35,949 nucleotides of DNA from Actinomycetes bacterium. GTDB lineage: Bacteria; Actinomycetota; Acidimicrobiia; Acidimicrobiales; Bog-793. The stretch is from positions 1-35,949 of the forward strand of contig JAJZKA010000018.1 of assembly GCA_021809805.1 (NCBI GenBank), read 5' to 3'. Position numbers and translations under genes: made by a program. The notes beneath the pieces were generated by a model that saw only the letters and a list, made by a program, of their open reading frames with translations, had not been told where the DNA came from and did no database searches. Within the stretch, counting starts at the first letter, position 1, and every line of letters starts with the position of its first letter. Shown in pieces: positions 11,491 to 29,447 of this stretch.

Positions 11491-11529
11491 ATGCATCAGC
11501 CCACCCTCGAGCAGCTCCTCCTTACCTGA
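11491..11529 (+). CDS. leuA leader peptide (MHQPTLEQLLLT)
   Basis: A 12-residue ORF with four leucines, three of them consecutive (CTC CTC CTT at 11515-11523). It is followed by a control hairpin and a strong T-tailed terminator before leuA. This is the signature of leucine-responsive transcription attenuation, an established mode of leuA control in actinobacteria. No Shine-Dalgarno is present and the ATG lies about 8 nt after the -10 box, so translation probably starts from a leaderless 5' end. Bases 11509-11515 (GAGCAGC) can pair with 11553-11560 (GCTGCCTC, one bulge), which would occupy the terminator's 5' arm. That gives a ready alternative, antiterminating fold. Confidence 0.88.
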   Translation: MHQPTLEQLLLT

Positions 11530-11588
11530 CGGCGAGCGCTTCCGCGCTCGCCGCTGCCTCCTGTGCCGCCTCGGCCAGGAGGTTTTTT
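11530..11588 (+). terminator. leuA attenuator: control hairpin plus intrinsic terminator
   Basis: Hairpin 1: CGGCGAGCGC (11530-11539), loop TTCC, GCGCTCGCCG (11544-11553), a perfect 10-bp stem directly after the leader stop codon. Hairpin 2: CCTCCTG (11557-11563) with CAGGAGG (11576-11582) plus an inner GCC/GGC, followed by six T (11583-11588). This is a textbook intrinsic terminator placed 43 nt before leuA. Confidence 0.9.
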
Positions 11589-11601: not shown

Positions 11602-13317
<1,716 letters not shown>

Positions 13318-13323
13318 GCGCTG

Positions 13324-13866
13324 GTGCGCCTGCTTGGTGAGCGGCACGTCCGGCGCGGCCTCGCCACGCTGGGCGTGCTCGGCGCGGGTGCCCTCGTGTC
13401 CGCGTGCTCGTCGTCGGCGCCCGCAGCACTGTCGGCGTCCCAGATCCTCAGGTATTCACGCGATGCCCGTGTCGTCCATCTCACCTTGGACGCCGCCTTG
13501 ACGTCGGCGTACTCCGGGTTCAACTTCGACGGCTACGGCAGTGGAGCGATGACGATCGACGTGCCCGTCGGCTGGAGGATCGACGTCACCTGCACGAACG
13601 AGTCCACGACCTTCACCCACTCGTGCGCCATGGTCACCAATGTCGCGCCGAGCACGAGCGGCGCTCCCTTCGCCTTCCCCGGCTCGGTGAGCGCCAACCC
13701 GGTCTACGGCCTTGCCTACGGCGTGAGCTCGGCCTTCTCCTTCGTCGCCTCGCGCGTCGGGACCTACCGCATCGCCTGCTTGGTGACCGCGCACGAGCTC
13801 GATGGGATGTGGGACTGGTTCGACGTGACGCGCGGCGGCACGCCGAAGGTTCGCCTCTCGCGCTGA
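13324..13866 (+). CDS. Sulfocyanin-like type-1 (blue) copper lipoprotein
   Basis: A 180-residue predicted lipoprotein: a basic N-terminus (RHVRR), a hydrophobic segment and lipobox LVSAC with the lipidated cysteine at C28. The rest (about 50-170) reads as a cupredoxin of the sulfocyanin type: FNFDGYGSGAMTIDVPVGW, then H99 (FTHSCAM), FPGS..NPVYGL, and C152-x4-H157-x4-M162 in YRIACLVTAHELDGMWDWF. All four copper ligands (His, Cys, His, Met) are present, with the same C-x4-H-x4-M spacing as rusticyanin. Family knowledge: sulfocyanins carry electrons in respiratory chains of Sulfolobus and the iron oxidiser Ferroplasma. The product would sit on the outer face of the membrane. GTG start; no later start keeps the signal peptide. 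It is probably co-transcribed with leuA (6-nt gap) and its stop lies 1 nt from the convergent leuD stop. The partner oxidase is not in the window. Confidence 0.85.
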   Translation: MRLLGERHVRRGLATLGVLGAGALVSACSSSAPAALSASQILRYSRDARVVHLTLDAALTSAYSGFNFDGYGSGAMTIDVPVGWRIDVTCTNESTTFTHSCAMVTNVAPSTSGAPFAFPGSVSANPVYGLAYGVSSAFSFVASRVGTYRIACLVTAHELDGMWDWFDVTRGGTPKVRLSR

Positions 13867-13867
13867 A

Positions 13868-14464
13868 TCAGGCGCTCATCGCCGGCATCCATTCGGGCCG
13901 CTTGGCTTCAAAGGCGCCGATCTCCTCGGCATGCGCCAAGGTGACGCCGATGTCGTCAAGGCCGCGCAGCAGACGATCGCGCGCGGAGTCGTCCATGCGG
14001 AACGGCCCGGAGATGCCTGCCGCGGGGGCCTCGACGAGGCGGCGCTCCACATCGACCACGATCTCGAGGTCCGGGTCGGCGGTGACGGCGTCGAGCAGCG
14101 CCCGACCCAGCTCGGGGTCGACCTCGGCGGGCACGAGGCCTGAGCGCGTCGAGTTGTTGCGGAAGATGTCGGCGATCCGTGGGCTGATGACGGCGCGAAA
14201 GCCGTAGTCGACCAGCGCCCATACGGCGTGCTCGCGCGACGAGCCCGTGCCGAAGTTGGGCCCGGCGACGAGGATCGTCGCCCCGGCGTGCTCGGGACGA
14301 TTGAGCACGAAGTCGCGCGCATCGCGCCACTCGGCGAACAGCCCGGCGCCGAAGCCGGTCCGCTCGATGCGCTTCAACCACTGGCTCGGGATGATCTGGT
14401 CGGTGTCGACGTCCGAGCGGTCCAGGGGGACCGCCCGGCCGATCACTGCCTGCACGGGTTCCAT
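13868..14464 (-). CDS. leuD: 3-Isopropylmalate dehydratase small subunit
   Basis: Partner of LeuC in the isomerisation of 2- to 3-isopropylmalate and, with citramalate, in the isoleucine route. It has 198 residues from the ATG at 14464, which has AAGGAG 4 nt upstream; longer readings upstream overlap leuC and are not needed. The family signature is clear: DVDTDQIIPSQWLKR near the N-terminus and AGPNFGTGSSREHAVWAL in the swivelling domain. It lies 25 bp after the leuC stop in the same unit. The last residues (EWMPAMSA) end 1 nt from the convergent sulfocyanin-like gene, leaving no room for a separate terminator. Confidence 0.96.
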   Translation of the reverse strand: MEPVQAVIGRAVPLDRSDVDTDQIIPSQWLKRIERTGFGAGLFAEWRDARDFVLNRPEHAGATILVAGPNFGTGSSREHAVWALVDYGFRAVISPRIADIFRNNSTRSGLVPAEVDPELGRALLDAVTADPDLEIVVDVERRLVEAPAAGISGPFRMDDSARDRLLRGLDDIGVTLAHAEEIGAFEAKRPEWMPAMSA

Positions 14465-28449: not shown

Positions 28450-28830
28450 CTAGAGCGACTGGACGAGGGCGAGGCCCACACCGGCGGCAACGAGTCCGAG
28501 GACGACGCTGCCGAGCGCATTGCTGAGCGCGTGGGCGATCTCGCCCCGCTCGATGAGGCGGACGGTCTCAAAGCTCCACGTCGAAAAGGTCGTGAAGGTG
28601 CCGCAGAATCCCGTCGCGAGCAGCGCCGTGAGCTCTGCGGGCAGATGCCCGCGCAACTCGATGCCGGTCAGCACGCCGAGCAGGAGGCTCCCGGTGAGGT
28701 TGATCAGCAGCGTCCCGAGCGGGAACGAGGTCTGCGTGCGGTCCGTGACGTAGCGGTCCACGAGAAAGCGCGCCGGCGCGCCAACGAAGGCGCCGAGCGC
28801 GACGAAGAGCACGTCAAGGGCAGTCGCCAT
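28450..28830 (-). CDS. crcB: Fluoride-specific ion channel CrcB (second of pair)
   Basis: A 126-residue, four-helix membrane protein of the CrcB/Fluc family, which exports fluoride. Landmarks: GAFVGAPARFLVDRYV in helix 1, the central GTLLINLTGSLLLG with the Asn that lines the pore, and GFCGTFTTFSTWSFE with the phenylalanine box and Na+-site region. It begins 3 nt after the stop of the other crcB gene. Tandem crcB genes usually encode an obligate or preferred heterodimer in Gram-positive bacteria. It is read from the riboswitch-controlled transcript starting near 29440. Confidence 0.95.
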   Translation of the reverse strand: MATALDVLFVALGAFVGAPARFLVDRYVTDRTQTSFPLGTLLINLTGSLLLGVLTGIELRGHLPAELTALLATGFCGTFTTFSTWSFETVRLIERGEIAHALSNALGSVVLGLVAAGVGLALVQSL

Positions 28831-28833
28831 CGC

Positions 28834-29346
28834 TCAGCTGCCGAGCTGCTCGTCGACGCGCGCCTCCAGGCGCACGAGGAATCGGCCTCCGGCGATGCCG
28901 AGCACCGCCGCGAGCATCCCCCCGACGAGACTCACGCCGCAGTACAGGCCAGCGGACGCGAATTCATGGCGGCGCAACAGCAAATCCACCCCGACTATGT
29001 AGGTCGAAAACGTCGTGTACGCGCCGAGGAAGCCCGTCGCAAGCATGGGCCGGGCAAGACGGGCGCGCGGGAAGCGCTCGGTGACGAGCATGAGCACGAC
29101 ACCGAGCAGAAAGCTTCCAGTGAGGTTGATCAGCACGATGGACCAGGGAATCGCGGCGGCACCCGAGGGCAGGAGCAGCCCGATGCCATAGCGCGCGAGC
29201 GCGCCCGCTGCTCCGGCGATCGCGACGACGAGCAGGATCGTGCGTTGCGCACCTTGACGCCTGCCAACAGCGTTCCCCCGGTCGCCGACGTCGGGGTCGA
29301 CCGGGAGCGCGCTCATCTCAGCTGATCGTTCCGCACGTAGGCTCAA
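28834..29346 (-). CDS. crcB: Fluoride-specific ion channel CrcB (first of pair)
   Basis: A 170-residue CrcB/Fluc protein: an extra N-terminus of about 35 residues precedes helix 1 (LLVVAIAGAAGALARYGIG); pore motif IVLINLTGSFLLGVV; GFLGAYTTFSTYIVG. The start is taken as TTG at 29346 because GGGAGG lies 4 nt upstream and is the very segment complementary to the riboswitch. An ATG at 29316 (160 residues) is the alternative, with poor Shine-Dalgarno. The partner gene follows after 3 nt. Expression is expected to rise when fluoride enters the cell, which happens more readily at acid pH as HF. Confidence 0.93.
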   Translation of the reverse strand: MSLRAERSAEMSALPVDPDVGDRGNAVGRRQGAQRTILLVVAIAGAAGALARYGIGLLLPSGAAAIPWSIVLINLTGSFLLGVVLMLVTERFPRARLARPMLATGFLGAYTTFSTYIVGVDLLLRRHEFASAGLYCGVSLVGGMLAAVLGIAGGRFLVRLEARVDEQLGS

Positions 29347-29390
29347 GGCTCCTCCCTTCCATGGTCGCCAGCATGAACTGGTCGATGCAA

Positions 29391-29438
29391 GGCAGGAGCC
29401 ATCAGCCCGTCAAGGCGGTTTCGGCGAGCCCCATCGCC
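29391..29438 (-). promoter_or_regulatory. Fluoride (crcB) riboswitch
   Basis: The minus strand from 29438 reads GGCGATGGGGCTCGCC, then GAAACCGCC, a short loop, and GGGCTGATGGCTCCTGCC. This fits the crcB-motif consensus almost base for base. GGGGCT (29432-29427) pairs with GGCTCC (29400-29395) in the bound fold. The same 3' strand, GGCTCCT (29400-29394), is also perfectly complementary to AGGAGCC (29353-29347), which overlaps the Shine-Dalgarno and abuts the TTG start of crcB. So ligand-free RNA can hide the ribosome site and fluoride binding should free it. Confidence 0.93.
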
Positions 29439-29447
29439 GTCGTGCCT

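Follow-up and report, generated by a model that had tools for sequence, protein, structure and literature searches.

A predicted SoxE-like blue-copper lipoprotein, a candidate electron carrier, encoded directly behind leuA in one genus of Acidimicrobiales

The window analyzed here, a 35,949-nucleotide stretch of a contig from an Actinomycetes bacterium of the order Acidimicrobiales, carries a gene for a small cupredoxin (hereafter cyanin) directly behind leuA, which raises the question of what this protein does and whether its position couples respiration to leucine synthesis, as had been proposed from the sequence. The ORF starts with GTG and encodes a product of 180 aa (Table 1). The four copper ligands named in the original prediction (H99, C152, H157 and M162) occupy the positions given there, and their spacing of 53/5/5 is indeed that of rusticyanin H85/C138/H143/M148, all four being in register with the rusticyanin ligands in a phmmer alignment to 2cak. 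This ligand alignment and the predicted fold (Z about 13) identify a type-1 copper cupredoxin, with His, Cys, His and Met on a cupredoxin scaffold. The proposed lipobox was also found (V-S-A-C28), its Cys being kept among the aligned members of the protein family (f1), and inspection of the N-terminus revealed the charged n-region, hydrophobic stretch and lipobox Cys of bacterial lipoproteins (RRG-LATLGVLGAGALVSA-C28). As judged from these features, the product is most likely a lipid-anchored, extracytoplasmic, single-domain protein of the SoxE/rusticyanin superfamily, predicted to bind type-1 copper.

Table 1. Positions of the cyanin gene, its predicted functional residues and the surrounding leucine biosynthesis features in the window.
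Feature	Position	Strand	Basis
leuA leader peptide MHQPTLEQLLLT-stop, with Leu-codon run	11491..11529	+	sequence reading; run, hairpin and terminator recur in family and order relatives
Two leader hairpins	11530..11588	+	RNA fold z-score -5.1; terminator scan; conserved in relatives
Second leader hairpin with U run, probable intrinsic terminator/attenuator of leuA	11556-11583	+	RNA fold, terminator scan
leuA, 2-isopropylmalate synthase	11632..13317	+	Pfam HMGL-like, IPMS_D2, LeuA_dimer
6-nt spacer between leuA and cyanin	13318..13323	+	without terminator or recognisable Shine-Dalgarno
SoxE-like type-1 copper lipoprotein gene (predicted)	13324..13866	+	PF06525, 49 bits; AlphaFold2 pLDDT 85; rusticyanin Z about 13
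Lipobox Cys28 (V-S-A-C)	13405..13407	+	Cys kept in aligned family f1 members
Cys90, pairs with Cys101 (predicted)	13591..13593	+	in 22/23 aligned sequences
Copper ligand His99 (predicted)	13618..13620	+	aligns with rusticyanin ligand His
Cys101, 2 residues past ligand His99	13624..13626	+	alignment
Copper loop C152-LVTA-H157-ELDG-M162 (predicted)	13777..13809	+	aligns with rusticyanin Cys, His and Met ligands
leuD, convergent, stop 1 nt from cyanin stop	13868..14464	-	tblastn and ORF calls

The HMM search suggested with the original prediction returned a match to the SoxE family (Pfam PF06525; 49.2 bits against a gathering cut-off of 21, E 5e-13), which places the protein in the SoxE domain superfamily. 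Its scores against the NCBIfam equivalogs of sulfocyanin (TIGR03094, 48.2 bits) and rusticyanin (TIGR03095, 24.1 bits) lie under the respective cut-offs of 168.4 and 146.7. Sulfocyanin gave the top profile score among the named cupredoxins, and all 23 aligned clade members match the sulfocyanin model (17/23 match that of rusticyanin). The published sulfocyanin signatures, C-G-I-[AL]-G-H-A-[VAQ]-[SA]-G-M-W and FNFNGTS (PMC517927), are not found in the window protein, which has CLVTAHELDGMW and FNFDGYG. The mismatch is one of detail, yet FNFDG for FNFNG and the G-M-W that closes the copper loop show an apparent kinship with sulfocyanin, with which the Pfam domain and the FNF[ND]G motif are shared. 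Further differences from sulfocyanin are the composition of the loop (C-LVTA-H-ELDG-M-W in the window protein), a His-Cys distance of 53 instead of 61, the lipobox and an additional Cys pair. The clade is nearest to sulfocyanin and, on the score of the window protein, outside that equivalog. The earlier designation "sulfocyanin-like" therefore stands at the superfamily level, on the SoxE profile match, but not at that of the equivalog cut-off or the published signatures.

An AlphaFold2 model was built on 23 homologues (the list of matches from genome contigs is a sample of the homologues there); its mean pLDDT is 85, with 116 of the 180 residues at 90 or more. Rusticyanin, a soluble periplasmic protein, heads both structural match lists (Z about 13, rmsd about 3 A, 124 residues aligned), so that the structure prediction called for earlier yields, in the predicted model, a cupredoxin fold with rusticyanin as best match. 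Other cupredoxin domains come next at Z 11-12, and the fold alone thus cannot pick one cupredoxin family. The resemblance to rusticyanin (TIGR03095; PDB 2cak, 1rcy) in fold and ligand distances is accompanied by an identity of about 21-23%, and the aligned rusticyanin lacks the additional Cys pair.

This pair, C90/C101, is near-invariant in the clade. The Chloroflexi copy (L013) misses both residues at once, a joint absence that would fit a disulfide. The protein is a novel branch of a known family, namely a SoxE-like lipoprotein clade with its own Cys pair. Two copies have lost copper ligands and retained the Cys pair: L032 (G017:C177:498-1004; H to N, C to S, H to R), which adjoins an IS1595-type transposase (L047:1161-2210), and L009:585-974 (C to S, H to Q). 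Between G000 and G002, two genomes of the genus, dN/dS is about 0.30 for the whole cyanin gene and 0.26 for its mature part (0.09 for leuA), which indicates that the gene is maintained under purifying selection. The profile match, predicted fold, conserved ligands and this selection all back the reading of the gene product as a blue-copper lipoprotein.

The clade protein occurs in 15/35 genomes of its family, the window genome included, in 1/25 other genomes of the order and in 5/395 genomes of a class sample, three of the five belonging to the same family. Any SoxE domain, as detected with the broader Pfam model, is found in 19/35 family genomes and 69/298 order genomes; the window genome encodes a single SoxE protein. 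A search of this genome for a 16S gene, by which it might be placed, found none. The genes next to cyanin vary by genus (acyltransferase, P-type ATPase, PNPase, MutM, methyltransferase), no conserved neighbor was found across genera among the copies compared, and in other genera the copies examined had no recognisable respiratory gene next to them.

Ten family genomes were searched for oxidases and c-type cytochromes. Three COX1 genes occur in the window genome, two of them with a CuA-type subunit II that Pfam recognises, and a single cytochrome c was detected with PF13442 and PF00034, models that may miss unusual cytochromes. This cytochrome has two heme domains and is encoded beside Rieske and cytochrome b genes, presumably the actinobacterial QcrC arrangement. 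Given that the single cytochrome c detected is of this two-heme type, a blue-copper protein at the surface, either mobile or tethered, could plausibly act as donor. The cyanin most likely carries electrons on the outer side of the membrane to a heme-copper oxidase, at its CuA site, both the redox function and the partner being predicted. Against this reading, QcrC in Actinobacteria is able to hand electrons directly to the oxidase, and none of the genes next to the cyanin points to a partner. Two genomes (G015, G021) combine cyanin with a single COX1, and three (G004, G007, G014) have COX1 without cyanin, a mismatch which argues that the cyanin is not bound to any one oxidase and that the family can do without it; a link to one alternative oxidase is unsupported by this co-occurrence pattern. 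The question concerned is the route of electrons to terminal oxidases in acidophilic Actinobacteria that seemingly lack a soluble cytochrome c, and a conserved surface blue-copper lipoprotein clade offers a concrete candidate protein for it.

Two further observations concern the oxidases themselves. A second heme-copper oxidase (COX2, COX1) lies near a stand-alone cytochrome b (G000:C102, L135:4968-9979); no gene for a cytochrome c was seen next to this oxidase, and the same layout occurs in G002 (L138). Also, an ORF located 5' of the third COX1 (G000:C144, L136:1-570) contains a cupredoxin-like HWQCFVPCG near its end, has no Pfam match and could be a divergent subunit II.

The cyanin might instead serve iron oxidation, as a cell-surface shuttle that brings electrons from Fe(II) to an aa3 oxidase. 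Such a role has a precedent in Ferroplasma, where sulfocyanin was proposed to be the primary acceptor of electrons from Fe(II) (PMC10654088); it would suit the predicted surface anchoring of the window protein, and for Ferrimicrobium, an iron oxidiser among the Actinobacteria, no route of electrons across the wall is known (PMC8350767). Against it, neither sulfocyanin nor cyc2 was reported to be present in the genome of an iron-oxidising Acidithrix (PMC8223813), and in live-cell spectra of the iron oxidisers Acidimicrobium and Ferrimicrobium a-type cytochromes predominate, and not blue copper (PMC5143472). In addition, SoxE domains are common throughout the order, as counted above, and the surroundings of the cyanin copies examined contained no recognisable iron-oxidation gene. 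An iron role for the cyanin is possible but unsupported, and we regard this explanation as unlikely.

We hold it equally doubtful that the protein serves extracytoplasmic copper binding or copper tolerance and not respiration. A Met-rich SoxE paralog in G002 adjoins ORFs which by eye resemble a P-type ATPase, CopZ and CsoR, and 6/23 clade members weakly match the CopI cuproprotein model, both of which speak for copper handling; however, the window clade has no Met-rich N-terminus and retains the full type-1 ligand set, and no copper-handling gene adjoins the cyanin in the window genome. In a pair of relatives (G006, G023) the cyanin lies near a P-type ATPase. The Met-rich paralog itself (G002:C14, L139:5728-9658) hints at a copper-handling branch of the family.

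As to the position of the gene, the 6-nt gap and common frame described earlier are correct, leuA ending at 13317 and the cyanin GTG lying at 13324. The junction is arranged in the same way in the sister species G002, and in G001 the likely cyanin ATG overlaps the leuA stop in a different frame. A terminator scan of the window detected none between leuA and cyanin; a sigma-70 promoter scan likewise detected none, a result that is uninformative at this G+C. In this genus the cyanin is probably read from the leuA transcript, and since the two genes lie close together or overlap in three species, translation of the cyanin may be coupled to that of leuA. A LeuA-cyanin fusion through TGA read-through was ruled out, given that a shared frame has a 1-in-3 chance and that G001 uses another frame.

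Upstream of leuA, the leader resembles the actinobacterial LEU element, in which a Leu-codon leader is followed by a pseudoknot whose Leu codons pair with the leuA Shine-Dalgarno (PMC1262725). In both, leuA is preceded by hairpins and by a leader peptide that contains a run of Leu codons, and those of the window are conserved in relatives. The RNA fold predicted for the window leader is a stable one (z -5.1); an Rfam search at the gathering cut-off gave no match to a leuA leader family. Unlike in the LEU element, the AGGAGG that might pair with the Leu codons lies inside the U-run terminator hairpin, about 40 nt 5' of the leuA start. Leader peptide, hairpin and a CCTCCTG...CAGGAGGTTTTTT terminator precede leuA throughout the family and also in several further families of its order, which implies that the leader is older than the cyanin insertion.

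Among the loci compared, the leucine/isoleucine cluster enclosing the cyanin is common only to the three genomes of the genus (G000, G001 and G002; 3/3). In four other genera (G009, G011, G014, G017) leuA and leuD are direct convergent neighbors with no cyanin between them, and G009, G011 and G017 have the cyanin at other loci. The three cyanin copies of the genus also group together in the tree (support 90/89), which, with the restriction of the adjacency to one genus, points to a single insertion before the genus diversified. One cyanin gene, apparently a roaming one, has thus probably moved in at that time; its repeated loss from the leuA/leuD junction is less likely. The copy would have landed between the convergent leuA and leuD and would now be read from the leuA transcript under translational coupling. 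Since the leader predates the insertion, the simplest view is that any dependence of carrier expression on leucine follows from where the gene landed, and the coupling to leucine is probably incidental. We give a probability of about 0.6 to this reading as a whole, namely an extracytoplasmic electron carrier to CuA-type oxidases whose gene was inserted behind leuA.

The proposed coupling of respiration and leucine synthesis did not hold as a conserved module, the adjacency being absent in other genera. It could still be adaptive within the genus, the leader setting the level of the carrier through leucine supply or translation rate; the 6-nt or overlapping junction is retained in its three species, all three genomes have the leader and the window has no detected terminator between the two genes. 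Its absence from other genera and the greater age of the leader argue against this and make it quite improbable. Least likely of all is that the clade constitutes the missing wall-side carrier which brings high-potential electrons, perhaps those of iron, to the aa3 oxidase in acidophilic Acidimicrobiia, and that leucine supply sets its amount in this genus through the leuA leader. Under the preferred explanation of an incidental landing site, the leuA case illustrates that an insertion can create an operon context resembling regulation.

Elsewhere in the window (28600-29447, minus strand), a fluoride riboswitch (Rfam RF01734) is followed by two adjacent ORFs that resemble a CrcB/Fluc pair.
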